64,000 bases of DNA from Terebella lapidaria. Its lineage: Eukaryota; Annelida; Polychaeta; Terebellida; Terebellidae. Numbering within the stretch: the first letter of the stretch is position 1; every line of letters starts with the position of its first letter. This document shows, one piece after another, positions 5,259 to 59,137 of the stretch. A model generated the notes under the pieces. The model saw only the letters and a program-made list of their open reading frames with translations, had not been told where the DNA came from and made no database searches. The stretch covers positions 57,246,451 to 57,310,450 of the forward strand of contig OX424556.1 in the NCBI GenBank assembly GCA_949152475.1, given 5' to 3'. Made by a program: the position numbers and the translations under genes.

Positions 5259-6189
5259 GCGATTTTGCCCATAGATTGCGGCAGGTGTCTTTGCTAAACA
5301 TTAACCAGTTTTACGGTCTATTTTTGGACGCTTCAGCTCGAAGCACGTGTTGCCCCGGCAACGCCCTATAATCTTCTCTCGCCCAGTAAACTATACCAAT
5401 GGTTTGACCTAGATCTCCTTCGTGTCTCGTGTATTGGGCTATGTATACTCTGGCACCGTTTTGATCTGGGAAGTTGTCTCAGAGCAAGGCGAGAGAGACG
5501 ACGGGGAGCTCAGCCATAACCTCTACATCCTCGCTCCGTGGCTAAGGCCCTCGCGGGCCCTGGGGACGACTTCAATAGGGGGCACGGGCTGGGGTAGACC
5601 TTGATGACTCGTAGCGCATGCCCTCTGGATCACCGGTCTTCTCCACCCGGGATGGTGCGACACAGGCTCTGGCAGACTGTCGGGCTGTCCGGGGTTCCAT
5701 CCCCGAGGCGGACAGCGGCGAGCCAAGCCTCACAGTTGACACCACGGTGATGATCCTGTATCTGAGTGGTGTCCGCATGTTTGGGCTCGTTGGGCGGGCT
5801 GCTACCTAGTTAATGTTCTAATGATAGAGTAATGACTGCGCCCGCAGTGACCCTCGGTGAGCAGACTTCCGCGAGGATCTGAGGATAGCGGATGCGCGTC
5901 CGCGATGACCTGTGGTGAGAGGACTATCCTCGAGGATCCCGGATAGCGGACGACGTTAAAACTTTACATTGGTGCCGTGACCAGGATCAGTCCGACGGCT
6001 TTCCATTGCAGCCTACTGTCGCAGTGTTTTGCTCCCTCATCCCTGGGGACCTCTTGCCTCTCCCGGGACAGCTTGGAAAGATATAATGAGCGAGAAAGAG
6101 AAAGAGATAGTCAATGGGAAAGGTAGTCCGATTTACAGCGGCTGATTTCCATCGCGCTTGACCAGTACAAGCGGAACCAGCCTGCTGCT

Positions 6190-8430
6190 ATGCGTGTCGA
6201 TCCGACGATCCCCTACAGTCCGGGGATGACTGGGCCAGTGTCCCCTCCCCCAGTCCTACCAAGTCCGCAGGCGCCAGTGGTCTCAGCAATGGGATACGTG
6301 CCTGCTCCGCGACTTGGGGGCACCACGCTGGCTACCGCTTCGACCATTCCTATGGCCGGAGTGTCCGCCGCGTGGTCAGCTTATTCTGGCAATCAGGGTG
6401 TGTCGGGCATGCAGTGGCAACCGGTGGCTCCGGCCCCTAGCTACGTCAGCTATGCCGCCCCGTCTGGAACCTACCCAGTAGGATCGACGGGAGTCTCGAT
6501 CGCACCAAGTCAGGGTGGGCAATTTGTGGGTATGTACCCGGCAGCGAGCGTGAACTTCCCAGCTCCCATGCCCGCGACGTACGGGTCCGCTCCGGTAGAC
6601 TCTGCTGCAGGAGGTACATGGACTCTGCCGTCCTATATCAACCGAAGGCCAGACCAAACGTCTTGGCGGAAGAAGTTTAACGAGGATAACGCCGATCTGG
6701 AGGATTACTTACTCCAGGTATGGCGGACGGTGGTATACAAAGGATGGACCCAGGAGGAAGCTGTGCACATCCTCTCGGGGAGCCTGGAAGGAAAGGCCCT
6801 CCAAGTTATGCAGTGTCTGCCGTTGGGGACGGCTACGTTCGGCGAGGTTGCCCAGCAACTTCGCTTGCTGTTCACGCCGACAACAAACAGGCGGATGTTT
6901 GAACGAGAGTTCAAAGCGCGGATCCGCCTACCGACTGAGTCCGTAACTGAGTACGATGGCCAGCCATACCACATATCATACGGGCTGGCCATGCACGAAA
7001 AACGATCGATGGAGGAGGTAATTAACTCCGCCCTTGCAATAGAGGTAGCTGTCCGCTCCAGACAGATGCCTCCGGCCCCGGCTTCGGCCCCGGCTGTTCC
7101 CTTGCAAGTGGTGGCACCTTTTCCGGTCAATGCATCGCAGATGGCCCCATGGCCTGCCCCGGCTCCCCGGGAACCAGCCATGGAGCCCAACCCTCAGCGG
7201 GTTGGTACACCGGCACCCTCCACAGGGATGCCCATACAAGCGGCACCGGCTGTCGCGTCGTGCTCATCCTCGGAGGAGTACGACTTAGAGGAATACGATT
7301 TCTCTGCGGCGCAGATGATTGCGCACTGCGCAGGAATCGAAGCTCCGGGACCCGCGGACTGCTGCGTGTTCACCTCCGGACCAGCTCAGAACCGTTCCAT
7401 GCTACTTCTGCGAAAACAGGGACACTTCTGGCTTAAGTGTCCGGAATTACTGTAATGCCTGCGGACACGCGGATATCATGGGAGTCTCCCTGATCCGCGC
7501 CGGAGAAATTCCTCCTTTCGGTTTGGTCCTTGGGACAGCAGAACCGTCCTTCGCGTGAGGGAAACTGAAACCGGACGTGGTGGTGACCAACATTACGTCC
7601 GGGGACAGTTGTTCTGAGACTGCCCCCTCTACGGACAAGCCAGACGATTCTCAAGTAGATATAACTTCTCTGGAAGTGGTCCTTGAGGATCCGTCTAGCT
7701 CGTCCACGGCCGAGGTAGACAAAGAAGACGCTGACAACAAACAGGCGGATGTTTGAACGAGAGTTCAAAGCACGGATCCGCCTACTGACTGAGTCCGTAA
7801 CTGAGTACGCTTTTAACTTTCGCGTACTAGGCCGGAGAGCTTATCTGGACATGGAAGCCAGTCGGTTTGAACCGATGCTAATTGACCAATTCATCGATGG
7901 CCAGCCATACAACATATCATACGGGCTGGCCACGCACGAACAACGATCGGTGGAGGAGGTAATTAACTCCGCCCTTGCAATAGAGGTAGCTGTCCACTCC
8001 AGACAGATGCCTCCGGCCCCGGCTTCGGCCCCGGCTGTTCCCTTGCAAGCAGTGGCATCTTCTCCGGTCAATGTATCGCAGATGGCCCCATGGCCTGCCC
8101 CGGCTCCCCGGGAACCAGCCATGGAGCCCAACCCTCAGCGGGTTGGTCCACCGGCACCCTCCACAGGGATGCCCGTACAAGCGGCACCAGCTGACGCGTC
8201 ATGCTCGTCCTCGGAGGAGTACGACTTAGAGGAATACGATTTCTCTGCGGTGCAGATGATTGTGCACTGCACAGGAATCGAAGCTCCGGGACCCGCGGAC
8301 TGCTGCGTGTTCACCTCCGGACCAGCTCAGAACCGTTCCATGCTACTTCTGCGGAAAACAGGGAAACTTCTGGCTTAAGTGTCCGGAATTACTGGAACGC
8401 CTGCGGGCACGTGGATATCATGGGAGTCTC
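6190..8430 (+). pseudogene. Gag region of Gypsy element A (fossil)
   Basis: Pro/Ala/Ser-rich N-terminal part, then a capsid-like part (WRKKFNEDNADLEDYL, RRMFEREFKARIRLPTESV) and a CCHC-type knuckle (CYFCG...). A segment of about 850 bp around the capsid and nucleocapsid part occurs twice in tandem (about 6880-7560 and 7735-8520), a duplication internal to this copy. Broken. Confidence 0.8.
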
Positions 8431-8739
8431 CCTGATCCATGCTGGAGAAATTCCTCCTTTCAGTTTGGTCCTTCGGGACAGCAGAACCGTCCTTCGCGTG
8501 AGGGAAACTGAAACAGGACGTGGTGGTGACCAAAACTATGTCTGGGGACAGTTGTTCTGTGGCGTCTGAGGCTGCCCCCTCCACAGACAAGCCGGACAAC
8601 TCTCACGTAGATATAACTTCTCCGGAAGTGGTTCTTGAGGATCCGTCTATCCGTCTGTCGAGGCAGACAATGAAGACTCCGTTGCCGAGCCCAGTGCTCT
8701 GGATGATGCCTGCTGGTACCCCTGCTGGTACCTGCCTCT

Positions 8740-10760
8740 GTCTTGCAGACGGCCCGGTCCCTCGTAAACTCTGGCTCAAAGGTTACCCTCGTAGCCATGG
8801 GAACTTTTAAGCGCGAGCCAGCGCTCCGCGACATCGTATTGCGGGATCCCAGACGTTACACGCTCCACGGAGCGGGTAACAATAGCATCCCTATCCATGG
8901 TGTCATCGATCTGCCTATTACTCTTGGAGACAAGATATACATAACAGAGGCAATCGTTGCGGATATTATAGCGCCCGGGATCATTGGAATAAAATTTCTC
9001 CAGATCCACCGGGTGATCGCCAACTTCAGCGCCGGCGAACTCCGGATGGGAGAGGACACACATTTCCTCTTCCACGCGGGTCCGACCCTTTCTTTCTTTC
9101 CAACTGCAGGCGGCGCGCACAACCATTGTGCTGCCTTTGAGCGAGATGATCATTGAGGCGAGGCCACGGCGTCCGTGCATGTCCCTTGATGGTCGTCCGT
9201 GTAGAGTGCAACTGGTAAGTAATTTTGCCCGAGGAACGGGACTCGTGCTGGGTGGGGCTCTGGTCAAGTCCGACATCCGCGCGATGCCTATCCTCGTGGT
9301 GAATCCCATGGATGCTCCCGTTGTCCTGCGACGCTACTGCTACGCTCGCGTCGTCTAGCCGGGTTATCCCTGACGACCCTGTGTGTTGTGCTGCGTGCGC
9401 GGCAGCGTTCGCTGGAGATGATCCGTTCATCCTGCCAGACCATCTGGAATGGTGCGGTTGGCAAGACAGACGTGGCCAAACACCGCATCAACCTCCTGGA
9501 TGAGCGTCCTATTAAACAGCATCTACAGCGAGCAGCGATAGTGCACCAAGAGGTCATAGACAAGGAGGTGCAAAAGATGCTCGAGCTAGACATCATCGAA
9601 CCCAGTGATAGCCCTTGGGCAAGTCCTGTGGTTATGGTGAAGAAGAAGGACGGCTCGTGGAGGTTCTGCATGGATTATCGTAAACTCAACGATGCCACGC
9701 GGAAGGACTCATATCCTCTTCCGCACATCGAGGACACTTTCGATGCCCTGGCCGGATCGCACTACTTCAGTGCTCTGGATCTGGCCTCCAGGTATTGGCA
9801 GGTCGAGATGGACGAGAGTGATACGTCGAAAACTGCCTTTGTTACCAGGAACGGGCTCTACCAATTTAAGGTAATGCCGTTCGGGCTCTGTAACGCACCA
9901 GCGACGTTCGAGCGCCTCATGGAGATGGTCCTCAAAGGGTTCCTCTGGAAGCGATGTATGGTTTACATCGACGATGTCGTCGTGTATGGCCGTTCGTTTG
10001 AGGAAACCCTCACCAACCTCCAGATGGTGTTTCATCTCATCCGCGAAGCAGGCCTTAAATTGAAGCCTAGTAAGTGCGAACTTTTCGCGCAGGAGATCCT
10101 GTACTTGGGCTTCATGGTAACAGGCACCGGAGTTAGACCAGACCCTGCAAAGATAGAGGCAGTACAGAACTGGCCTCGGCATTGTATCATGGCGGACGTG
10201 AGGTCCTTCTTGGGCTTCGCGAGTTATCACCGCCGGTTTATACGAGGCTTTGCGGAGATCGCGCGCCCCCTTACTATCCTCACGGAAAAGGGCGCCGATT
10301 TTGTCTGGCAAGCTGGGCAAGCCATCGCCTTCTCGGAACTCCGGCAAGCTTTAGTAGCTGCCCCGGTGCTGCGGCACCCTCGGCCGGATTGTGAGTTCAT
10401 CCTTGCACTCGGCGGTGTCCTCTCACAGATCGTGGATGGACAAGAGCAGGTAGTAGCTTATGCGAGTGTGGCTTTGAGCCGCTCTCAAATGAACTACTGC
10501 ACCACTCACCGTGAGCTCCTCGCGGTGGTAACCATGACCAAGTGTTTCCGGCACTATTTGTTGAGACGCCATTTCCGCTTGCGGACTGATCACAGTTCGC
10601 TGAGATGGCTCCTAAACTATAGTGAGGCCGATGGCTTGGTGGCCCAGTGGCTCGTCAAACTCCAGGAGTATGACATGCAAATTGAGCACCGCGCCGGAAA
10701 GTTGCACGGCAACGCTGACGGACTGTCACGTTGTCATAAGTGCAAGAACCCTGACTGTGC
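8740..10760 (+). pseudogene. Protease, reverse transcriptase and RNase H region of Gypsy element A (fossil)
   Basis: A protease-like stretch comes first. Then come RT motifs: SPWASPVVMVKKKDGSWRFC, the DYRKLN block, LDLASRYWQV, the FGLCNAP block and the catalytic YIDD. RNase H follows with HRELLAVV, RTDHSSLRWL and HGNADGLSR. This is a typical Ty3/Gypsy order. The element is a broken fossil. Confidence 0.9.
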
Positions 10761-10974
10761 CGGGATGACTCCATTCCAGCGTGTCGGGGATTCTTCCTCA
10801 GACTCGGAATTGGACCTTCCAGGAAGGCCGCAGGCCGCCACCCCCTCTAACAACACAGCAGCCGGAGCCACAAGAGTCCACCCCTGCGCGAGGACCCGCC
10901 GTTACCGGCGTTGGCGTCCCGCATTTGAAGCGGAGGTATGACTCAGCTCCAGTGAGTCTTCCTCGAGTCCGGCG

Positions 10975-12623
10975 GTGTACTCCTCGGGTGAGTCTGAGTA
11001 CGAGCGGTCCTTGCTGCCCGTGGTGATGGCCGCTGGTGCGCAGTCAGATGATTCGGATGAGGAATTGAACTACTTGGGCAGTTACTATCCGGCACAACTG
11101 GCTGCAAAGCAGAGAGCTGACAGTGCTCTGGCACCGGTAATAAAAGCCCTTGAGGCCAGCCAGAAACCCTTCAAGGATGAGCGGAAAACCTACAGGGAGG
11201 AGACCCAGTCTCTCATCTCCCAGCGGGAAAGACTCTCCTTGAGGGATGGCCTTTTGTACCGGCGCTATGAGCCACCGAGCCCACTGCCCCCTATTTGGCA
11301 GTTGGTGCTTCTGGCGGAGCTGCGGAAAGAAGTGTTCCATCAGTTGCATGACCTCTGGGTGACCGGTCACCTGGGAATCCGGAGGACCGTCCAAAAGCTA
11401 CAACAGCGCTTTCACTTGCCTGGTAGCAGTTTGGACGTGCAACGATGGTGCGCAGCTTGCTCTCAGTGTCAGGCTCGCAAAGGAGTTCCGGCTCCTGGCC
11501 ACCACCCCTTAACCACGGTTAAGGCTGGCGCGCCTTTTGACCGGATCGCCCTGGACATACTGGATACCCGTCGGGTCACCCCGCATGGTTTCTGGTACAT
11601 CCTGGTGATCTCGGACTATTTTACCAAATATACCAACACCTACCCACTACGCCGCCGGACTGCGGACGAGGTACCTCGGTTGCTGGTGAATAGGTGGGTG
11701 GTTCACCATGGTGTACCTAAGCAGGTACATTCGGATCAGGGCACGCAATTTGAAAGCAACCTGTTCCAGAACCTAGCACAGATGCTAGGTAGTACCAAGG
11801 TGCGGACCACCCTTACAGGCCCCAGTCGGACGGACAGGTTGAGCGCTTTAACCGGTCTATCCTGAACATGCTGACGGCCTTTGTAAATGATCGTGCGAAT
11901 GATTGGGATGACCACCTATGTTGTACGGCCGGGAACTCAATCTGCCCATGGATATTATGTATCCAACTGCGGCGGAAACCGGTGAAGTACCCCCAGTGCG
12001 GTCCGGAGTACGTTGAGTGGGTTCGCCGCGCCCTCACGAACGCCTATGATTTCCGACTGGACAAGTCGGCCATCCAGCAGAAGCGTGGCTATGACGCCCA
12101 TGCTAAGGGCAGGCCTGCTTTTGCAGAAGGCGACAAGGTGCACTATTAATATCCACCGCTGAAGCAAGGTAACAAATTTGCTAAGCCGTGGATAGGCCCG
12201 TTAACCGTGCTGAAACAGGTGACAGACGTGGACTACCGGATCGGGAGGGATTCTGATCCAGATAGGGTTCTGGTGGTCCATATCGACAACCTGAAGAAGT
12301 ACGAGGGCCCTCTCGTCATGGATCCGCTCATACAAGATGCGGAACCGGATGATGCTCCTCTTTTGGACACTTCCGGTCAGCATCCGCGGACTCCGGACGA
12401 ACGTGTGCGCCGTATGGTGGGTCTTCCGGACCTCTCTGATCTGTCAGATGACGGTCCGGACGACATTACACCTGATCTCGGCGATCCGCAGGTACCACCA
12501 ATCCCTCCAACACCTGCAGATGATGGGCAGCCATGCCGGAAACCCTGTGCGCCGACCCGATATTGGTGGGATTATGCGAATGTGTATGCGGTATCCATCT
12601 ATCACACCAGGGATGGATTTTAG
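10975..12623 (+). pseudogene. Integrase region of Gypsy element A (fossil)
   Basis: A zinc-binding HHCC region (HQLHDLWVTGHLG ... CAACSQCQARKG) is followed by a catalytic-core-like part (FDRIALDILD, VHSDQGTQFESN) and a C-terminal part with FAEGDKV and the LTVLKQVTDVDYRI region. The integrase of element B is clearly related. Broken. Confidence 0.85.
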
Positions 12624-19666: not shown

Positions 19667-20524
19667 TAATTCCTGAAGGGTGCCAAGCTTGCACCAGTCT
19701 GATTTCAATTCAGGATATGTCAAATATGACAAATGAACGATAAAACGTTGTACGGCAAACACGGTTGCCTAAGAAAACACTATTTGGCAGGTGGACTATA
19801 CCCCCTATTTGTTACAGATACATGATGAACAATTACCCAACAAACAAGATTTATTGTTATTGATGTCAGAATAATGTTTCGCATTGCGCGTAAATCACTA
19901 CTGAAATAGCGTGCGAGTTGGTGTTCTGCTTGAAAACTCAAAATTTACGACCATTATATAAACAAGATAAAGATAAGGTTTCTGTTCGCATACGAAGCTG
20001 AACCCTTGACGAAAACAGAACTAGTTGGAAGCGATGTTATATGCAGGATATTGAGTGTGTTAAGTAGCGACTAAAGTATAGCGATTATTAAATAGTTATT
20101 CGGCGGAGACTATTAGAGTGGACGGAAGAATACAATTCTAACTTCGTTTTAAGGCGACTTATTCAGGAAAATTGAGTTAGGTGCAAACCGGAGATACAAT
20201 GTACAGTAACGCTGGACATTAAGAAATGTGATCGTCTCCTGGGTCAGACATTCTATTCTGACCTCTACTGTGGGCAGCACGACCTCCGGAAACTCAGATC
20301 AGCTCCGCCATCTGTGTGTGACTTCCCTCTGGTATTCCTGCTCATGTGTATCCTACGTGATTCACTGGAATACCACTGTATACTGTTTGCATAAAACATG
20401 TGAGGATATCACAAATCACGCAATATTAAGTATTTACATTCTGGAGTGTTCACACAACAAGATATCCTCATGCCATACTAAAAATCATGCTTGAATATAT
20501 ATTATTACATTCAGTAGTGAAAAC
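19667..20524 (+). other. Upstream region and probable 5' UTR of the GPCR gene
   Basis: No coding exon is recognised. The last few hundred bases before the GPCR start are presumably 5' UTR or promoter. No TATA box is convincing. Confidence 0.4.
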
Positions 20525-21736
20525 ATGGAGTGTGAAATGAACCTTAGTTTGGATGTTTTAGCTAGGTCTGATGGCGGTAGTAACTTTAGTTTTGAGGACC
20601 TGGCTGGTCACAATGTCTCACTGTATGACGGGGACTGGCGGCGGACTGCACGAGCCGGAGATTGTATCAACACCGTACTCATACCGACTGTTTTAGCCTT
20701 CGGCGTCCTCGGAAACCTGGCGAATATCGTCGTACTGACGAAACACAACACCAGGCTGGGACTAAATCACATAGAAGGCTCCACTTTGCAAGGATTCATC
20801 ATGTTATCAATCTCTGATCTGCTGTTCTGTATCATAGGATTCCCGGCAGCATTTCTGCCAATAGAGGCATACGCTTTTGGGAATAACACACTCCAGTTGG
20901 TCGGATTTTTCTACGGAGTTTACCGGACACCTTTGTTGAATGTGTTTATCTTCGCGAGCACGTGGCTAATCACGTGGGTTGCCATAGGGAGATACATTGC
21001 AGTTTGCCATCCGTTTAGAGCCAGAACCTTGATCAGACCACGAACGACGACATGTGTACACGCTGCCGTGGCCATCTCAGCCATTGTGATCAACATACCA
21101 TCCTTCCGGACGTATTCGATAGGGAAAACTCAGTGCAGTTCGATGTGTTCTTGTTATTTTCGCCAAGTGAGACTGATGTCTGGCGCTGGTGCCGTCTTTT
21201 TGACAGTTCACAAAGTGACGTGGGCGGTGTTAGGCACCTTGCTGCCCCTGGTTCTGCTGGTGTTCTGTAACGTGAACATCCTGCGAGTGGTGTGTCGGAC
21301 GAGCGCCGGGGAGTCGACAGACCGGAGGGACAGCAGTCTGGTGCCTCGTGTCACGTGTACTCTGGTACTGATGGTCTTCCTGTACCTGGCGCTAGTCACA
21401 CCCTCCATGGTGCTGGCGCTCCTGGCACAGACTCTCACACACATGTCCAGACAACAGTTCCTCGGCTTCACACTCGCCGTCCATGCAACCAATCTCTGTC
21501 AGGCCATCAAGTTCTCCTCAAACTTTATCCTATACACTGTCACCAACGAGCGGTTCAGGACAAGACTCCAGATGATCTTCTGTCGAGCCAGTTTTGGTTC
21601 ACAGAACAGCCAGCGGGCGGATTTAGGACACAGGCGCTACCAGTTACTGGGGCTGGGTGGTAGGCGTGACACACGTGCGGACTTCAAACCTGTCCTGAAC
21701 ACTATCAATATGGTCAACATGACAATGCGGGTATAA
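20525..21736 (+). CDS. Class-A (rhodopsin-like) orphan peptide-type GPCR, intronless
   Basis: A 403-residue single-exon receptor. The extracellular N-terminus has three N-glycosylation sequons (N6, N20, N30), with another at N120. Seven hydrophobic segments lie near 48-72, 88-112, 135-158, 176-195, 232-256, 276-302 and 314-340. GNLAN (63-67) in TM1, LSISD (94-98) in TM2 and RYIAVCHPFRAR after TM3 are class-A hallmarks. The CHPFRAR stretch and overall shape resemble invertebrate FMRFamide or myosuppressin-type peptide receptors. Several hallmarks are altered: the DRY motif is GRY (155-157), position 3.25 is Gly131 so the usual TM3 disulphide Cys is absent, TM6 has VTP (291-293) without the CW before it, and TM7 has NFILY (333-337) in place of NPxxY. 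The ligand cannot be inferred. The start follows AAAAC and is the first Met of the frame. Confidence 0.9.
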   Translation: MECEMNLSLDVLARSDGGSNFSFEDLAGHNVSLYDGDWRRTARAGDCINTVLIPTVLAFGVLGNLANIVVLTKHNTRLGLNHIEGSTLQGFIMLSISDLLFCIIGFPAAFLPIEAYAFGNNTLQLVGFFYGVYRTPLLNVFIFASTWLITWVAIGRYIAVCHPFRARTLIRPRTTTCVHAAVAISAIVINIPSFRTYSIGKTQCSSMCSCYFRQVRLMSGAGAVFLTVHKVTWAVLGTLLPLVLLVFCNVNILRVVCRTSAGESTDRRDSSLVPRVTCTLVLMVFLYLALVTPSMVLALLAQTLTHMSRQQFLGFTLAVHATNLCQAIKFSSNFILYTVTNERFRTRLQMIFCRASFGSQNSQRADLGHRRYQLLGLGGRRDTRADFKPVLNTINMVNMTMRV

Positions 21737-31900: not shown

Positions 31901-34900
31901 CTCAACAGGCCGAGCACGCGAGGCGCTGGCGGCGTGGTCCGACAGGGTAATCCAGGCGTGTACTACGACGACAACGGCCGATTGTACTACCAGGAGCCGG
32001 GACCCGGCCCGCAGCAGACCGGCTCCCTGCCCCGCGACAGCCAGTGGCGCCGGGATCTACGTCCCGACGACACGCTGACCTACGATCCGCGCAAGGCCGA
32101 CTCGGAATCCCGCGGCCCGCGCTCTTACGAGCTGAGTCGCGACACACCTCGCAGCAGCGGCCGCTCTCTCGGCACCAAGCACTACGACGGCTATCGGCGC
32201 AGTCCGCTCATGGAGTACCGCGGCGACCGCCCTCCGCCGGCCGCGCCTGTACCCGTCGGCTACATGCGTGCCGGACCCACTCGCTATGTCAGGGACGGTA
32301 GCGTCATCGTAGAAGAGCGCATCATCTCACACGAACGCCCCTGGATCTGGCCGCTGTTCATGATCACGGGTCTCTTGATGCTGGCCGCCGGCATCGTCAA
32401 CGCCCTCTTCTGTGTCGACAACCACTTCTACGCCTACCTCTGGACACCACTGTTCGTGAGTAGTCCTTCTTAGCCGCTAGTCTCGAATCTGCTGAAACCG
32501 TGTATATTTGTAATGTTTATACGGGATTAAGGTGATCACAAACATACAAGTTCCAATAAATCCATGGTCCTAGCGACATCGGAATATTTTTGCTCTGAAA
32601 ACTAGGAGTGCATAGGAGCTAGGAGAACAGTCACTTCCTTACTTAAAATGAGGACATTTCACCAGAAAAGGTTTCACTATTATATACGGATATTATATAC
32701 AAATCATCTGGATTTGACCTGGTAACCTATCGGTGGGCTGCAGAGTTATTGGTCATAAGATTTGATTTGGCATCGTACATTCCATTACACTGTACAATCA
32801 TCCACTGAATTTCATAGTCCTTGAGCTAATTCTGGTTATACCCTGATGTTTATGTTTCTTTGCTATTTATTCCTGGGCAAACTTGATCAATAGACCCAAC
32901 CTACCTAACATTTTTTGTTGTAGCTGGTGATTTTCGCAATCTTCGGTGCAGTGCACAAGGGAGTCTACAGGGGGCGTGGCGGCAGGTGGCGGGTAGGTAC
33001 ATTGCTTGCGATCGAGAGTTGTGTGATGTGATCTTAATCCGAGCCGCTCTTATCTACGAGTACCAGGGTACATGTGAATGTTACGCGAATCGTTGTAGAA
33101 CTGCGGCTACATTGTGATGGGGGTGCTGACGGCAATCGTGGTCTTTGTGTGCTGTGCGCTGCTCCAGATCCGCCTCAACCACGTCACAATCCAGATATCG
33201 GAGCACGGGCCCGGGGACTACATCGCGTTTGAGATAAACAGAATGAACACCCTCAACCACTTGTAAGTTTCTGAATTTCTCGAAAAATGTGTTGATTTTG
33301 ATGTTGCTGGATGGTTACTTTTTTGTTGACGAGCCCTCGTGTTGTTCCTCACAGCCCGCGAGTGAACCTGACATCGAGCTTGGAAGAGAACGTGTGGGCC
33401 TGCTACTCCATCGACTGGGTCGGACTCATTCTGACACTTGTCGCTTTCGCAGTGCTGCCCTCTGTTGTCGTTATCGCAAACAACTACTACAATTCCAACC
33501 ACCAGTACAGCAGAGAGGTAAACAATACAATCACGACAGTACATTCATCAACCACCAGTACAACACCGAGGTAAACAATACAATCACGACAGTACATTCA
33601 TCAACCACCAGTACAACACAGAGGTAAACAATACAACCGCGACAGTACATTCCTCAACCACTGGTACAACACAGAGATAAACAATACAATCACGACAGTA
33701 CAATCATCAACCACCAGTACAACACCGAGGTAAACAATACAATCACGACAGTACATTCATCAACCACTGGTACAACACAGAGGTAAACAATACAATCACG
33801 ACAGTACAATCATCAACCACCAGTGCAACACAGAGGTAAACAATACAATCACGGCAGTACATTCATCGACCACCAGTACAACACAGAGGTAAACAATACA
33901 ATCACGACAATACATTCATCAACCACTGGTACAACACAGAGATAAACAGTACAATCACGACAGTACATTCATCAACCACCAGTACAACACAGAGGTGAAC
34001 AATACAATCCCGACAGTACATTCATCAACCACCATTACAACACAGAGGTGAACAATACAATCCCGACAGTACATTCATCAACCACCAGTACAACACAGAG
34101 ATAAACAGTACAATCACGACAGTACATTCATCAACCACCAGTACAACACAGAGATAAACAATACAATCGCGACAGTACACTCGTCACCACCAGTACAACA
34201 CAGAGATAAACAATACAATCACGACAGTACATTCATCAACCACCAGTACAATACAGAGGTAAACAATACAATCACGACAGTACATTCATCAACCACTGGT
34301 ACAACACAGAGATAAACAATACAATCACGACAGTACAATCATCACCACCAGTACAACACAGAGGTAAACAATACAATCACGACAGTACATTCATCAACCA
34401 CTGGTACAACACAGAGATAAACAATACAATCACGACAGTACATTCATCAACCACCAGTACAACACAGAGGTAAACAATACAATCACGACAATACATTCAT
34501 CAACCACCAGTACAACACAGAGGTAAACAATACAATCACGACAATACATTCATCAACCACCAGTACAACACAGAGGTAAACAATACAATCACGACAATAC
34601 ATTCATCAACCACTGGTACAACACAGAGATAAACAATACAATCACGACAATACATTCAATAACCACCAGTACAACACAGAGGTAAACAATACAATCACAA
34701 CAATACATTCATCAACCACCAGTACAACACAGAGGTAAACAATACAATCACGACAATACATTCATCAACCACCAGTACAATACAGAGGTAAACAATACAA
34801 TCACGACAATACATTCATCAACCACTGGTACAACACAGAGATAAACAATACGCTCCGAAATTGCAAACCCTCTCCCTCAAAACTTTTTTTTTTACTAAAA

Positions 34901-37900
34901 TTAAAGCTGGTGACCCTTACGTCTTCGGCGTTGGGTGATAATAGGGAATTCTTGATGCTGACCTCCAAAATTTTATATATATATATATTTATTTATATAT
35001 ATATATATATTACGTTTATTAATATATTGGTTTGAATATCGTCATTGGTTTTGGAATAACAACTACTTGAAATATCGCAAATCAGTGATTTCAGATGATG
35101 ATCTTTACATTTTCTTCCTTGGAAGATAATGAGGATTTTTGTTCGTACAACCGTCGGTCACATAGCAAATAATATGGAATTGTTCATAGAGAAATACAAA
35201 AATATCAAGGATTTTTCATGAATATTCTCGACTTTGACCTTCACTGTGACCTTGATCTTATTGTTGATTTTGAGCTTTAAAATTACACAGTATTGTTTTC
35301 ATGATCTGAACAGATCTCCTGCATGAAAACATATAGAATATTGAGAGAATATTGAGAGATCGTGGCTTCACAGCATGCAACTGAATGTCGGAACAATTGT
35401 AAGACCGTGACTCTCAATTCCCAATTCTCAATTTCGGGCGATAATGGGGTTTTCAGGTCGAGGATTGACCATAAAACATACAAAAATAGTTTTAAAATAA
35501 ATTTAATGTTGATTATGTCATGGCAACTGTTATTATTGATTGTTGCTTAAAATTGAGGATCATGAAGCCACTACCATACCGCTCCAAAGCTATGAGCCCA
35601 GACGAACAAACATACATACAGACGGACCCAAATGCCATACGCTCGCAATACCAGGGTGAGGGTAACAATACAATCGCGACAATACATTCATCAACCTCTA
35701 GTACAACACAGAGGTAAACAATACGACGGTATATTACAACAGGCAAGAGAACATTCACCACATTGCACCATATCTTTGACATTTATGAAAAAAAAATTCT
35801 ACCATGTAGGTGGAGCCGTTCTGTCGACCGGCCTTGTTCAACCCCTACGGTCAGGTATCACAAGGCCAGGCCATGGCATTCTTTGGTATCGTCATAGCAA
35901 CGGCTGTTCATGGCAACCTGCAGATTCGTTACCAGGACTACTGGCTGCCTGTGTGGATGTCCATCATTGTATGTACATGTATTCAAAAGCTGTTTTTCAT
36001 GCATATGTATTTCTGTCGGTCTTTCTGATGTATCATACCTATTTTATTGGCGTTGCGTCCGTTGTCCCCATTTGTATATTCAAAAAAAGTCCAAGTCGGA
36101 TTTCTCAAATTAAACAGGGGTTTATTTTTGGATTTTAGCGTATTTTTCTGTAACTTGCACTCTCGACTTTGATGGACATTTTCCAAAATATTAATTTTAC
36201 CTTTATGTATTGACCTCCCCAGTCCCCACGCCCCCTTTTAACTTTCCTAGTGCTTTGAATCGCCAGTCTGTGCAAGGCGACCATTTTGATTTAAATATTG
36301 CGTGTTTTATGCCATTATCAGCCATTGGAACGTTTCTTTCAAAACCTATTCTACATAGAAACATGAATAAAACTGTTTTCTAAGTAGTCACTTTTACTCG
36401 GGTTATATCAATATAGATACATATCTATACCTGCACTAATATGGCGGTCTAATACCACAAACCCACTCATATTTGATGATGTGCACGTGAATAACAAATC
36501 TAAAACACTTTTGGAATAAAAGTGAAGCCCGACAATATATTTACATTAAGGATACAAACATATGTAGAGGTCCTGAAGGGGACATTTCACTCTATTTTAC
36601 TCTATATACAATATAAAATAAATATATATTACCAGTATACATATATCAATACGCTCCCATATTGACATATTCAAAATGTTTGAACGAGGAGTTATATGAC
36701 GATTTCTGATCTCGAATTCGCCCTGTAATGATCTTAGAAAATTTGTTTGAAAACTTCTCCGGTAACCTTTATAGCCGTTGAGCGATGAACGTGTGAAATG
36801 ATGCATCCAGTTAATTCGTGTATTTTGGTTTACAGCCGATGGTTGCTGGGGTCGTTACAGCTTTCGCCTTGAAAAGAATAGGACTGAGAAATGGCAAAGC
36901 CTTGGTAATTTAGTTACATTTAGTTTTTGTGAAGTGTATGCTATTGCCGCTGATTTCCACCGATTATGGCAAGCAGCCGAATAACATTTTAACGTTAAAA
37001 CGTGATAATATCGAGTTATCTTGCGTTATAGCGTGATAACATTGCGTTATCAAAGAGCTCTCTGGTGTTATAACGCAATGCCATAGGGTTATTAGAAAGC
37101 TCTCTGGCGTTATAACACATTTGTTTCCGTACTGTCACATGAAACGTATTAAAACTTCAGTCTCCTATAAATATATGGTAAATTTCTCGTAGTAATACAA
37201 CGAATAACATGCGATATTACGAAAATAATGTGTAATAACGCGATGCCATCAAGTTATAATGCGGTAAAAGTGTTCGGGTGCTTGCAATGCGTCATAGAAG
37301 TTTCTCCAAACTATCATAACATTTCATATATATTGTTTGCGGAAGTTATAATAATCATTTAGTTTGTTATTGTGCGTGATATCGACATGTTTCAGCTGTA
37401 TGCCCGGTGCTGAATTAATACAAACTGTTCAGTTGTTCCTTTTCAGTTGCCCCTCGCAGTTTACGTCATTAATACTCTAGATATATCTGTTTTGCAGCTC
37501 GTTGCAGGCATCATACTACAGATGATATCTCTGCTGGTTATGGCCGGTATGATCGGCATAACGTCTTTTGCAATGTATGAAAACATACTTTCTTCAGTTC
37601 CCGGTGAGTCACGTGACATCACGCGAAACCTTCAAAACGTGACGCAGCTAACGTCCTAACGACCACTCCTCGGTGTCGGCAAACTAATTACGTCCTGTTT
37701 GTATACACCAGAAACTGGTTTCGTAAAGATACATGGTTCGAAGTGTGCAGAAACTAAATATTTGTTTTCAAATTATAGAACTATTTCTCTTGTAAAAGAA
37801 AACATTGAATTTTCGTTGACAGCTGATTTCTGGTGAACACATTATCTAGCAAGGAAGATGATTGGTTGTTTGGCTTCATTATTTGGCTCTAAGTGGACGG

Positions 37901-39967
37901 ATCACGCAATCCTTAAAACCTCCACTCAACCTTCCAGGAATGGTGTTAATATTGATATTTGAGTGTCAAACTTGTCCAATAACGAAGTACAAACTATGTT
38001 CCCATTAGTGTTAAGGCACCACACCTGCCTGGTTCTCCCAATAATGATCAAACAAACAACATATCCTTCAGTATCTGATATATACCAAAGCCTTATTTTC
38101 GGAATGTTTTTTTTTTTTCATTTCGTAGACAGTATGATGGCATTTGAGAAATATGTTATTTTCGTTAATATTCTCAGTGTCAACACACATTTTAATATTG
38201 GATTTAATCCGGATTTGATGGATGCATTTTTCGGGATTCTTTTCACACACACTTGCAAAAACACATGTTCATATATTATTTATACTAGTATATGAAATAG
38301 ATTGGTGTTTTCGAAACTGGTGGGAACATGTTTCGTCGTGTCCATTTGACGTACATTGTACATGTGTGTTTTTTTTGAAAATAAAAATGCCATAGTTTCT
38401 CGTCGAGCGGCTCTAACATACCAATGTTCAATGGACGATGCATAGTTTAACAATGTGAATATATCCAACAGATATATTCACCGAATAATAACAATGTAAT
38501 ATACATTTGGTGCATAACCATATATGTATATTATACCGATTGCTATGTACGTTGTAATTTAACGTGTGCAACACATGTGTATGTGTATCAACTTGTTATA
38601 TACGTACACATGGATGAATCTTATCCTGTTCCTACAAAATACTAATTTACTAAGCTTCTGTCACTGACCAGTTGGTGGCCGCCGCCATCTTGGAGGTGCT
38701 CTCACTCCTGGTGAGCGTCTTGTGTATCGTCATCTTGACGCTCGCGCTCTATGAGAACATACAGAGCACAGACAACGGTAATCCTCGCTAACATATAAGA
38801 AAAATATTAGTCTGCAGAAGTTTGTCGTCAGATTCTTAAACATACACTGTATGTATTACTATCATGTAGGCTGTCGAAAACATGCTGGTTAAATACAACG
38901 CTAACTCAGTGCCATTATCGCTCGGGCCTTCCTGTGTTTATCAGATATTTATGTGTCGTTTGGACAGAAATACATCTTTTTCCAGTAGATATTTTATATG
39001 TAATATTTCGGGTGGTTGTAGGTCCGATAGCGACGTCGTCCTATAGCGAACGCTTGCTGACGGCGTCGATCGTGCTGTTCGTGGCCATGGACCTCGTGCT
39101 GCTGGTGGGACTTGTGTACGCCCTGGCTCTACTCATCCGCCTCGTCAGCGAGGGATGTCGTACCGACCGGGCTCAGCAGCGGTAAGCTCAATCCCCGTAA
39201 ACCAGCTAGCACCTCATAATTCAATAGTATCTTATTCAAATCAAGAAATTTCCATGGGTTGATTGCACGTAAGGATCCCGGAATTGGGACGCTTTCGATT
39301 CACTTTTGGAACATATGCAAACATGAAGATAACAAGCTATCGATTTTCACACGCCAAATTAGACTTGTATGGGCCGGACAACTATTGTTTCATATAATCA
39401 TATTCCACTAAGCTGAAGCAGAAAAGTAGACACTTGTGATTGCACATGTTTTGTTCTGGGCCTGCAAACAGCCCTGTAGACATCTGTGATTGCACATGTT
39501 TTATCCCGTGCTTGCAAACAGCCCTGTAGACATCTCTGATTGCACATGTTTTGCCCCGTGCTTGCAGACAGCCTTGTAGACATATGTGATTGCACATGTT
39601 TTATCCCGTGCTTGCAGACAGCCCTGTAGACATTTGTGATTGCACGTGTTTTGTCCCGTGCTTGCAGACAGCCCTGTAGACATATGTGATTGCACATGTT
39701 TTGCCCCGTGCTTGCAGACAGCCTTGTAGACATATGTGATTGCACATGTTTTGCCCCGTGCTTGCAGACAGCCTTGTAGACATTAGTGTTTGCACATGTT
39801 TTGTCCTGTTATTGCAGACAATCCTGTAGACATATGTGGTTGCACATGTTTTGTCCTGTTATTGCAGACAGCGCTATGCCGAGGACAAGTATGCCGTCAA
39901 GTACCCGGATGCTGAGCCGGACTTTGTGGATGCCGTCAGAGACACTCGGGACCTACAGAGGTTCTAG
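28956..39967 (+). CDS. Eight-span membrane protein made of two CD20/MS4A-like four-span modules
   Basis: Exons: 28956-29026, 31909-32455, 32924-32992, 33099-33262, 33355-33517, 35810-35968, 36836-36904, 37498-37603 or 38672-38777, 39022-39181, 39868-39967. All borders are GT/AG and phases close, giving 535 residues. The start is MAEWTDSLRIPPR. Residues 24-165 form a hydrophilic Arg/Pro/Tyr-rich cytoplasmic region. Predicted spans: 170-193, 198-220, 231-255, 305-326; then 356-377, 383-405, 415-440, 461-488, and a short charged tail. A sequon (N288) lies in the loop before span 4. The second four spans repeat the first, exon by exon: exons 3 and 7 are both 69 nt with phase-0 borders, each finishing the second span of its module. 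A small exon finishing span 2, then one exon each for spans 3 and 4, is how I recall MS4A genes. Family is an inference from topology; the gene model itself is strong. Confidence 0.75.
29150..29530. repeat. GGTTTAAACC-rich intronic repeat
   Basis: Within intron 1 of the eight-span gene. The words GGGTTCAAACC, CCAGGTTTAAACC and GGTTTTAAACG recur in both orientations, and the ends (GGGTTCAAACCTG and GGGTTTGAACCG) are loosely inverted. It may be a decayed palindromic MITE. Confidence 0.4.
30921..31724. mobile_element. Palindromic MITE in intron 1 of the eight-span gene
   Basis: Starts GCGACGCTAAA and ends with the near complement TTTAGCATCGC. Inner segments also pair: CTTGGCACACTTCATCTAG and CGGCAACTTCTCACCGAATT near 31190-31230, against AATTCGGTGAAAAGTTGCCG and AGATGAAGTGTCAAG near 31560-31605. 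Related arms occur at 48242-48550 in the xylanase gene. No ORF. Confidence 0.7.
33496..34850 (+). repeat. 53-bp minisatellite that amplifies the exon 5 splice donor
   Basis: About 25 units of 53 bp. The first unit is the real end of exon 5: 22 exon bases (CAACCACCAGTACAGCAGAGAG) followed by 31 intron bases beginning GTAAACAATACAATC. Every later unit repeats both parts, so most carry a copy of the donor CAGAG|GTAAAC (a few read ATAAAC). Units differ by few substitutions, so the array is young or homogenised. Confidence 0.95.
34974..35020. repeat. AT-rich simple repeat
   Basis: TATATATA runs with short interruptions in intron 5. Confidence 0.8.
35653..35735 (+). repeat. Detached copy of the donor minisatellite
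   Basis: About one and a half units of the 53-bp repeat (GTAACAATACAATCGCGACA, then CAACCTCTAGTACAACACAG and AGGTAAACAATACGACGG), 800 bp beyond the main array and 75 bp before exon 6. Probably moved within the intron. Confidence 0.85.
36969..37285. mobile_element. Palindromic MITE in intron 7 of the eight-span gene
   Basis: Left end GCAAGCAGCCGAATAACATT; right end is its near complement AGTGTTCGGGTGCTTGC. The interior is rich in the self-complementary word CGTTATAACG and relatives. No ORF. Confidence 0.65.
37498..37603 (+). CDS. Alternative exon 8a of the eight-span gene
   Basis: A 106-nt exon between TTTGCAG and GTGAGT. It encodes span 7: LVAGIILQMISLLVMAG, then MYENILSSVP. The entry border is phase 0 and the exit leaves one base (G), which joins GT of exon 9 to give Gly. 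A longer form starting at 37447 after TTTTCAG would stay open and add 17 codons. Confidence 0.75.
38672..38777 (+). CDS. Alternative exon 8b of the eight-span gene
   Basis: A 106-nt exon between CTGACCAG and GTAATC, the same length and phases as exon 8a. It encodes LVAAAILEVLSLLVSVL, then LYENIQSTDN. It is identical to 8a at 17 of 35 positions, without gaps, so it is a tandem exon duplicate encoding the same membrane span. Confidence 0.8.
39428..39877 (+). repeat. 50-bp minisatellite that amplifies the exon 10 splice acceptor
   Basis: Nine units of 50 bp (GCACATGTTTTGCCCCGTGC, TTGCAGACAGCC, TTGTAGACATATGTGATT). The last unit runs into exon 10, whose first bases ACAGC follow the true acceptor TTGCAG at 39862-39867. 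Most upstream units carry the same TTGCAG|ACAGC; the first few read TTGCAA or CTGCAA. Confidence 0.95.
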
Positions 39968-55168: not shown

Positions 55169-56130
55169 GTGTTACGCTCCTGCTGTCACGCGACACGCCA
55201 CCAGGGTTCAGACTGTACGAGATGCCTCATGACAACACATCGTAACAAGGTGTGTCAGCCACATCGCAGGATGTGGATGACGACAGGAAGCCTTGACGAA
55301 GACGCATTGTTACAAGCAGCACAGGCAAGCTGTGCGTCAGGTGACTCTTACATTGTGGATGTAAGCCCGGTTACCTTGGCAACAGCCCACCAACCGGAAT
55401 CGGAACAGTTGCTACGCTATTCCGATACGACAGAAGACCTCCTGACTAGAATCCAACACAGTGTGCAATTAACCCGGGGCATGATGGGAGCTAACCCGTA
55501 TACGGCCAGGACCAGAGCATCGACGAGCATGCTGCTCGCTCCTCCAGACAGTTTCGCCCAGATGTCACCACCGGCATACTCAGCGTCGTTCGACCTGAAC
55601 GCGATACAGTCGCGAATGTACCATGAAACTACGATACGTGAAGGACCCTCAGTGTTTGTTCCACCTTACATATACACTATGAATCTAGTACATACATGCG
55701 AACAGTACGATTACCACAGGCTCCCATTGCTACGACTGTGCCACCGACTTACGGTACGACATACATCGGAGTACCGATCTACATGACAATGCCGAATCGC
55801 TATGCTGCACCCGATACCGGAATACGGATCGGTCCAACGGCACTAATAGGATATCCAATGCCATATGCTACTAGTAGTGTGTGTCACACCCCCAATGGCC
55901 CTGACATGACATGCACTGCGCCATATCGGTGTACCGATCTCATCACAAGTCGCTTCCCCAGCAGTTCGGTACTATGAGCGACAGCTACTCCTCATGGTGA
56001 TAGGCCTCCCCCGTTGGGTGCTACAATGAAGTGCTTCTTCTGCAAACGACCCGGACATCGATGGGTAAAGTGTTTTCGGTTGAGAGACATTCTCATAAAG
56101 AATGGTATGAAGCCCTTCATGTCGAAACCT
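55169..56130 (+). pseudogene. Gag region of Gypsy element B (fossil)
   Basis: Thr/Pro/Tyr-rich gag-like sequence, ending in a CCHC-like knuckle (CFFCKRPGHRWVKC at about 56032-56073). Broken. Confidence 0.6.
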
Positions 56131-56134
56131 CTGT

Positions 56135-56761
56135 TTGGTAACTCTGATTGAAGGACAGACCAGTCAAATTGCCACCAGTGAACAATTTGACACCGACACT
56201 GCTGGCGCCAAACTAAATGTGGGAGATGCTGCGGAGCAAGCGTCTTCCTCGAAACATGATCATACCTACTCCAAACCCATTGTCGTGTACGTGCCCAGTC
56301 ACCCGCCTCCAGCAACGCAAGCACAGTCACCTGTTTCAGGGCCACCTCCGGTCACTGCCCCCACTCCGACTAGGAAACAATCCACACCGAAAAAACGCCA
56401 GTTTCACCAAGTACGCCTCTGCTCTACAAAGGGGTGTCAGTACCACAACCGGTATTGTGGTACAGGCGAAAGTACCTCACAGGCCGAGGGGATTTCGGAC
56501 GACGGAGGATTGTTTGTCTACCCAAGCAGACCAGACCCGCCAGCGTCGCGGCCAACAATGCCACCACTGCCAGATCCGCCAGAATGGTACGCCAGTGAAC
56601 CGCTAGTGATAGACGTTTGTCGACCAACAGTGGAGTGTTGGAGACTGCCAGTACAGTACGGGGGTTATTCCAGCAAGGCTATCTTGGATACCGGAGCTCA
56701 GATATCATTTCTGCGACATGATCTGTTGTGCCATGTGCCCGAGGACCAGCGACAGCTCTGA
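56135..56761 (+). pseudogene. Protease region of Gypsy element B (fossil)
   Basis: A linker followed by AILDTGAQISFLRHDLL, the active-site motif of a retroelement aspartic protease. Confidence 0.75.
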
Positions 56762-57159
56762 GTGACTAGTGCTTCAATACGAGATGTGAACGGTAATATT
56801 AGCCCTATCGATGGAGTAATATAACTTACTGTGAAAATTGATACGAAACTCATGGCACTTTCTGTGTAGCCCAGATTCACGACGAACAAGGTCAAGGCAG
56901 TAAGGGAATGGCCGATACCTTGTGGAATCACAGAGGTCAGATCATTCTTAGGATTCGCTAACTACCACCGGCGATTCACCAAAGACTATGGCGAGATAGT
57001 AGAACCCTCACCGAGTTGACACACAACGAATGCCAGTTCACATGGGGCCCTCGACAAAAGAGAGTGTTCCAACATCTCCAAAACGCTCTGATTTGAGCTC
57101 ACAACCTCGCACATCCCACTGCATCGGAAGAGGACTACTGAAAACCGATTCTGGAAACC

Positions 57160-58870
57160 GATGCAAATGAGTTTGCGATTGGAGGTGCCTTGTATCAAGT
57201 ATTCAACGGCAATGAAGTTCCCATCGGATTTGGGAGCAAGACTCTGTCCAGAACGCAAAAGAATACTGCACGACGTATCGTGAATTGTTGACCGTGGTCA
57301 GAATGGTTGAGCACTATCAGCTCTACCTGTGGGATAGGCACTTCCTCATCCGCACCGATCATAGCTCGCTTCGATGGCTCAAAAACTACAGTGATGCCGA
57401 TGGGATGCTCGCTCGGTGGTTAGCCAAATTTCAACAATATGATTTCCGCATAGAACACAGAGCCGGAAAACAACACTGCAATGCCGATGGTTTGTCCAGA
57501 TGCCATAATTGCAAAAATCATAACTGCCCAGGATGACTACAAATACCCAGTACTGAGTCAGAAACCAGTTCAGGAGTGTTACCAGTTCGCTGACTACAAA
57601 TAGTAACGACCCAAGTCGAAAGAAGTTTTCAGGTCGATGAGACCATCAAACTTCTGGTCTCAAGGGAAATGTTGTCGCCACGACAATCGGCTCGAGTTTG
57701 TCAAACGGATAGTACTCTGGACGGGCAACGCTGGTTATCTGACTATACGATACAGGACATTGTGGCTGCTCAGAAAGCAAACCCAAGCGTCGGAAAGGTA
57801 TATCAGTGGGTTCAGTCTGGAACGAAACCCACCACTGAAGAAATCGCCAGGGAAGGCAAAGAAATCAAAACGCTTGTCGCTAGATGGAGTTGGCCCTGTC
57901 GGTCGACCCGTAATGCAAGTCGTGTTACCCACTACGCTGAGATCAGTGGTTCTACATCAGCTCCACAATTTACGAATCGTAGGACACTTGGGAATACAGT
58001 GCATGGTGGAACGTGTGAAACAGCGATACTATTGGCCTGGTTTGGCTCTACACGTCACGCGTTGGTGCACGCGATGCCTGCAATGTATGACACGGAAAGG
58101 TAAACCCACTCCCAGACATGTACCACTCACACAGTTGCCGACGGGAGCTCCATTCGATAATATCGCAATGAACATTCTCGATACGCACAAGGTGACGAGT
58201 CGGGGACACCAATACATACCAGTCATGTCAGATTACTTATCGAAATACACAGACGCCTTTCCGCTAAGAGGCCACACCGCAAAGACTGTCGCTGATGTGC
58301 TGGTGAATCGCTGGATTGTGTACCATGGGGTACCAAAGGTGGTTCATAGCGATCAAGGAGCAGAATTCGAATTGGGTCTGTTCCAGAACGTGATATGACT
58401 CCTAGGCGCTAAAAAGATCAGGACGACTCCATATAGACCTCAAAGCGATGGACAAGTGGAATGGTTTAACCGGACTCTCTTGAACATGTTAAATGCTTCG
58501 TCTGTGACAGTGGAAATGATTCGGACGTTCATCTTCCATTCGTCCTCATGGCCTATCGGACATCTGTACACTCATCGACTGGATGCACACCGTATCTCAT
58601 GATCTACGGACGTGAGTGTAATCTCCCGTTCGACAGTTCGACAAAAGATGGGTTACGATGTCCAAACCAAAACGAGACCACATTTCCTACCTGGTGACTT
58701 GGTGAGGTATTACTACCTAACGTTGACATAAAAACAAACAAATTTGCCCGTCCATGGACAGGACCGTGGCGAATTCTAGAACATGTCACCGACGTAGAAA
58801 ACCGCATCGCTAGAGAATCCAATCCACATCAAACTCGAATAGTTCACATGGATGTTCTTAAGTTATATGA
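57160..58870 (+). pseudogene. RNase H and integrase region of Gypsy element B (fossil)
   Basis: RNase H motifs (RTDHSSLRWLKNYS, EHRAGKQHCNADGLSR), then an integrase zinc region (HQLHNLRIVGHLGIQ ... CTRCLQCMTRKG) and core motifs (MNILDTHKV, VHSDQGAEFELG). Related to element A throughout. Broken. Confidence 0.8.
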
Positions 58871-59137
58871 AGGAGATGCTCAGTTACATCCTTTGTATGT
58901 AACCTCAACGCTAATCGTCCCAGCACCACACTGGAAAGAGATAGTGACGATGATCCCGTGGAGCAACTCCAGAACTTGTATCATCCATGGACTGTCGTAG
59001 TTGAAGACACATGGGAACGCACAAGTTCATCCACTGATGAAGCCCAGTTCCTCTTGGAACATCCTTTGGTCCGCGTCAACCCAGAAGAACAAAACGGAAG
59101 CGCACCCCTGCTAAAAACAGTGACTTTTTCGATTGCC

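Follow-up and report, generated by a model that had tools for sequence, protein, structure and literature searches.

Which splice donor is used when the border between an exon and its intron stands 26 times in a row? The question arises at a 53-bp minisatellite in a CD20-like gene of the annelid Terebella lapidaria, lying in a stretch of 64,000 nucleotides that is referred to here as the window. The model of the host gene has the following features, in window positions.

31909-39967, plus strand: CD20-like gene, from open exons joined at GT-AG borders and a Pfam match
31909-32455, 32924-32992 and 33099-33262, plus strand: exons 2, 3 and 4
33355-33517, plus strand: exon 5, entered in phase 2 and left in phase 0
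33517|33518, plus strand: predicted true donor of exon 5, GAG|GTAAAC
35810-35968, plus strand: exon 6, where the second four-span module begins
36836-36904, plus strand: exon 7
37498-37603 and 38672-38777, plus strand: tandem exon pair, 8a and 8b
39022-39181, plus strand: exon 9
from 39868, plus strand: exon 10, with the stop TAG at 39965-39967

The joined frame is free of stops from 31909 to the TAG; an exon 1 was not found in building the gene model. With exon 8b the product matched the Pfam CD20 family (PF04103) at 29.5 bits, passing the cut-off of 27.9, and with exon 8a it remained below (15.2 bits). The two versions of exon 8 are both 106 nt long, with 18 of 36 residues identical, and are probably mutually exclusive, since inclusion of both shifts the frame. 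An origin of the two four-span modules by internal duplication is weakly suggested by the sequence: the test for module duplication gave a score reached in 2 of 500 shuffles, and the similarity of exon 3 to exon 7 was not above chance (187 of 1000). No second copy or array-free paralogue was found in the assembly, where all nine matches fell in this same gene, and no related solved structure was found at E values up to 1.

Other parts of the window contain a large inverted minisatellite pair at 908-3537, whose long 20-bp arrays run in opposite directions (GGCACAAACC... followed by ...GGTTTGTGCC). By eye, retrotransposon gag-pol-like frames with reverse transcriptase and integrase-like parts were recognised at 6127-12623 and 56111-59000, and an intronless open frame of 413 codons resembling a seven-span receptor at 20495-21736.

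The repeats of intron 5 and its border are these.

33496-34851, plus strand: 53-bp minisatellite, 25.6 copies (TRF, unit listing and copy counts)
33572-33574, plus strand: TAA within the second GAG|GTAAAC (donor-by-donor translation)
34870-35650, plus strand: middle part of intron 5, with a dispersed repeat at about 35024-35330 (assembly search)
about 35658-35727, plus strand: remnant with a 27th border copy (GAG|GTAAAC), separate from the array (unit listing and assembly search)

TRF returned a single array at the border, with a period of 53 bp, 92% matches and a score of 2285 (33496-34851). It is a tandem minisatellite whose unit spans the border and copies the splice signal, the border being that of the gene model (open multi-exon frame, GT-AG borders, Pfam match). 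The last 22 bases of exon 5 (33496-33517) belong to its first unit, which continues with 31 bases of intron 5 (33518-33548); this composition had been proposed from the sequence-only reading and was confirmed by TRF and the unit listing. Between the 26 consecutive border copies the distance is 53 bp in 23 cases and 52 bp in two. GAG|GTAAAC is exact in 15 of them, the real donor included, and GAG|GTGAAC stands in two; GT is kept in 17 copies and lost in nine, which read GAG|ATAAAC and are dead donors. The same reading was slightly too strong in giving most units CAGAG|GTAAAC, a string present in 12 of the 26, the first, real donor being GAGAG|GTAAAC. Its row of near-identical donors is present and the predicted border is straddled, but a row in which nine of 26 members are dead is less uniform than described.

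More than half of intron 5 is occupied by the array. For the 53-bp unit, all seven matches in the 761.6-Mb assembly (438 contigs) lay at this locus in a search that omits very common words. The remnant, 70 bp at 90% identity, begins about 800 bp downstream of the array, and its border copy lies 873 bp past the 26th. Between the two is the dispersed repeat, with at least 44 matches besides itself in the assembly, mostly at 71-81% identity, a lower bound from the scoring of 40 of 1070 candidates with 34870-35650 as query. An older, longer array was probably split here by an insertion. Unit subtypes are interspersed along the array and, together with the two 52-bp units, suggest past turnover.

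The exon-derived half of the unit (1.18 variants per site) varies about as much as the intron-derived half (1.10), and few events may lie behind the variants, since they are common to subtypes. The donor GT is not conserved within the array (absent from nine of 26 copies): 8 of 25 full units carry a base other than G at +1, which ranks among the unit's two most variable positions. Predicted pairing with U1 was -6.9 kcal/mol for the GTAAAC copies, equal to the real donor, -7.0 for the GTGAAC copies and -0.6 to -0.9 for the dead ones. The same nine bases stand in 15 of the 26 copies, counting the real donor. By predicted strength the intact copies are therefore indistinguishable from the real donor, and only position and context discriminate.

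The consequences of each choice were followed by translation on the gene model. The first donor gives the full protein, and the second lengthens the message by 53 nt and puts exon 6 out of frame, with a stop 85 nt into it, so that the product retains the first four-span module intact followed by a tail ending in exon 6. Both outcomes had been anticipated in the sequence-only reading. The third and all later copies, as well as full retention of the intron, stop at the TAA at 33572-33574, 18 residues past exon 5. A premature stop thus follows from each of the 26 later border copies (nine of them without GT) and from intron retention. Among the alternatives, translation enters exon 6 only from donor 2; they therefore amount to one of two truncated messages, not to a graded series. 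The stop is given by the GTRA donor itself when the unit length modulo 3 equals 2 at a phase-0 border; the 44-bp unit of a myosin-I gene, described below, yields a donor-derived stop in the same way on translation. Premature stops upstream of exon junctions, from alternative sites, are the pattern of poison splicing. Under the 50-55 nt rule such messages are subject to NMD, and since each stop is followed, at a distance of more than 50 nt, by at least one exon junction, NMD of the alternative messages is expected; messages from later donors are probably degraded.

A second border array was found in the same gene, on the acceptor side.

39426-39872, plus strand: acceptor-border array, 50 bp x 8.9 (TRF)

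In it, the last exon's acceptor (...TTGCAG|ACAGC) recurs eight times upstream, and AG is kept in six of these copies. Five of these six exchange the last 33 residues of the protein for 6-7 others, and the nearest copy exchanges them for 62. The exonic overlap is about eight bases and, on a 20-base criterion (16 of 20), three copies score, which makes this the weaker border case. The 50-bp array has one match in the whole assembly. With both arrays, 2 of 18 borders of the CD20-like gene are straddled, above the survey rate given below, for a gene that was chosen for one of them.

Three further donor-born arrays were found in conserved genes of the same genome, two in one myosin-I gene and one in a kinesin gene.

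L037:1965-9321 and L038:6390-7760, contig C6, minus strand: two donor-born arrays of the myosin-I gene (TRF)
L052:380-1215, contig C7: degenerate 20-bp donor copies in a kinesin intron (TRF)

The larger myosin-I array has a 44-bp unit in 157 copies, fills almost the whole intron, and contains GCATGTGAGT 156 times; this gene is more striking than the CD20-like gene with its 53-bp array. The second has 26 copies of 43 bp with TCAG|GTCAGAG, in an intron that splits the P-loop GESGAGKT. The kinesin array is possibly a decayed mirage, the name given in amphioxus to such border minisatellites. When the myosin fragment was joined at donor 1 and aligned with myosin-Ib, the join across the 157-copy intron was gapless, a short gap lying elsewhere; the P-loop, by reading, is intact across the 26-copy intron when joined in the same way. 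The kinesin fragment joined at donor 1 aligned with KIF13B without gaps. By reading, translation from donor 2 of the myosin-I array would end in the following exon, and that from later donors at the TGA of donor 2. In these three cases the first donor is the one predicted to make the conserved protein, a measure outside which minor isoforms fall.

These cases come from a survey of two conserved families, the myosin-head and kinesin genes, in which exon ends in 33 loci were examined. For myosin, 93 of 100 matches were used, the omitted rows being three on contigs C150 and C186 and four on C15, C16 and C17; for kinesin, 37 of 151 were used, picked for compact loci. Of these 130 matches 129 were located (one myosin match crosses a locus boundary), and 128 were tested per side. 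A copy within 1.5 kb was found downstream of 3 of 128 donor ends and upstream of 0 of 128 acceptor ends, numbers too few for a preference for donors over acceptors to be claimed. A downstream copy was also found for 78 of 1262 random intronic points, points within one locus not being independent of each other. Donor ends were therefore no more affected than other intronic places. Leaving L037 and L038 out on both sides gave about 1 in 122 donor ends and 31 of 1185 points. Within these small numbers, the seeding of arrays looks blind to position.

A first version of the survey scored splice sites with hand-set weights, which left 59 donors and 82 acceptors out of 129 each; it gave 2 of 59 donors, 0 of 82 acceptors, 67 of 1051 random intronic points and 18 of 1109 exon-interior points. 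In the first 20 loci, arrays made up 28,672 of 170,013 bases, a large share of which came from a few long ones; in the 13 short later loci the figure was 535 of 33,494 (at slightly different settings). With a density this uneven, the description of the genome as repeat-rich rests on part of the sample. Three weaker TRF repeats near exon ends were discounted as border copies, at L043 (36 bp x 1.9, 20 bp from a match), L053 (12 bp x 1.9, adjoining a donor) and L054 (15 bp x 1.9, within an exon).

Several small contigs of the assembly, such as C34, C110, C150, C186, C414 and C417, carry kinesin or myosin frames full of in-frame TAA and TAG; their reading frames suggest a ciliate-type code, and they probably derive from a ciliate cobiont. 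On C417 (61.4 kb) COX1 lies in a frame of 703 residues in which TGA is read through, and this contig is perhaps the mitochondrion of the ciliate cobiont. The mitochondrial contig C438 (15,973 bp) has 22 tRNAs predicted by ARAGORN and the recognised protein genes all on the same strand. Their order is F-E-P-T-nad4L-nad4-C-M-M-(rrnS)-V-(rrnL)-L-A-S-L-nad1-I-K-nad3-S-nad2-cox1-N-cox2-D-(atp8)-Y-G-cox3-Q-nad6-cob-W-atp6-H-nad5, where protein genes were named from their translations by reading and the bracketed rrnS, rrnL and atp8 are assumed from gaps. ARAGORN did not find trnR on this contig. The order is presumably the conserved annelid one. Single-strand coding and two adjacent trnM genes fit sedentary annelids as described in passages of PMC8245539. 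An amphioxus origin of the assembly is rejected on this evidence; GFP, a protein that amphioxus has, gave no match in a search that likewise missed its controls and so carries no weight.

The 53-bp array is very probably a minisatellite of the mirage type, and probably a by-product that splicing tolerates, with the first donor in use. A tandem duplication would by chance have spanned the border of exon 5 and intron 5, and the array would have grown through unequal exchange or slippage, the usual turnover of minisatellites. The spliceosome would almost always take the first, exon-defining donor, and the simplest mechanism would be exon definition, in which this donor, transcribed first, is paired with the acceptor of the short exon. 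Later donors would rarely be used, and their messages, which carry premature stops, would be degraded; the array would have no regulatory job, mainly lengthening the intron. The same architecture in the myosin-I and kinesin genes, with proteins fitting donor 1, points to tolerance, and by analogy with the continuity of those proteins the first donor is probably used regularly in the CD20-like gene as well.

Alternatively, the array could act as a copy-number rheostat of decoy donors, in which more intact copies send more messages to NMD and array length sets the output of the gene. The identity of 15 of 26 copies to the real donor in nine bases and in predicted U1 pairing is what such decoys would need, and every alternative is unproductive, as in poison splicing. 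The loss of GT from nine of 26 copies speaks against it; the 156 exact donor copies in the myosin-I intron, whose protein fits donor 1, suggest that decoys are cheap; and RT-PCR in amphioxus gave regular splicing, according to passages of PMC3087553. A rheostat is accordingly regarded as clearly unlikely. The wider proposal, that donor-born arrays of 26-157 copies (in two genes, with a third decayed) are length-variable decoys setting the fraction of unproductive messages, is given a similarly low chance; if it were true, gene output would vary genome-wide, both heritably and somatically, through minisatellite instability.

An intermediate of intron gain, with units recruited as new exons or as split introns, would parallel the model proposed for amphioxus globins in passages of PMC3087553, and human tandem repeats at borders can create introns (PMC2812944, in part). 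The units of the 53-bp array, by reading, lack a polypyrimidine-AG acceptor before their exonic half, and this route is very unlikely. Recursive splicing was rejected on a similar reading: the units have AG|GT but no polypyrimidine tract.

That donor 2 or a later copy makes a regulated one-module membrane protein is extremely unlikely. Donor 2 does keep the first module with a tail ending in exon 6, and later copies add 18 residues to it, but NMD is expected from the positions of the stops and the tail is a translated repeat unit. Although copy number is the least reliable part of any assembled tandem array, a false expansion or collapse in assembly would hardly produce interspersed unit variants, two 52-bp units and a remnant behind a dispersed repeat, on a chromosome-scale contig (61.9 Mb) and in an array of 1.35 kb that is short relative to long reads, so that an artefact is extremely improbable.

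On the preferred reading of a tolerated mirage, the phenomenon is extended from cephalochordates to an annelid. Choice among equal 5' splice sites is usually studied with few copies in artificial minigenes, and 157 near-identical donors, with a protein that fits the first, constitute a natural experiment on it, in a myosin-I intron made up almost entirely of repeats of its own donor. For gene annotation, introns with donor arrays can mislead the prediction of exon ends. A search for annelid or donor-array reports found no annelid case in the open-licence literature, in part among the best 15 of 174.

Several known systems resemble the Terebella arrays in part. The available passages on intron 1 of earthworm metallothionein (PMC12783039) describe large minisatellites in an annelid intron, as here, and, unlike here, no copies of splice borders. 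In a potato RdRp gene an intragenic tandem duplication is likewise linked to splice sites; PMC4974935 reports that a new intron was created there, whereas in Terebella an existing donor was multiplied within its own intron. In human segmental duplications, tandem repeats at exon-intron boundaries were associated with 27 intron modifications, according to passages of PMC2812944. These too are minisatellites at exon-intron borders and can change splicing; they differ in having units of 30 bp x 4 on average, in residing in recent primate paralogs, and in that some of the novel introns are supported by transcripts (PMC2812944, same passages).

The closest precedent is that of the amphioxus mirages, which the sequence-only reading had suggested and which is real (PMC3087553, in the part available). 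Passages of PMC3087553 and PMC3902484 describe mirages in Adh3, troponin C, the globins BflGb6 and BflGb9, and PGBD5, and report that they do not disturb splicing. The units of the Adh3 mirage measure 10-72 bp in these passages, and the two BflGb6 haplotypes carry 6 and 3 units, each of 150-160 bp (PMC3087553). As far as these passages go, amphioxus mirages share with the Terebella arrays the tandem copying of a border, the retention of many splice signals and the involvement of both donor and acceptor sides. On the same basis the differences are the phylum, the copy numbers (26, 26 and 157, versus 6 and 3 in BflGb6) and the occurrence in several genes of one genome, here considered with a chance control. 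The mirage is an already known kind of minisatellite, and the present case is notable for its phylum, its copy number and its recurrence.
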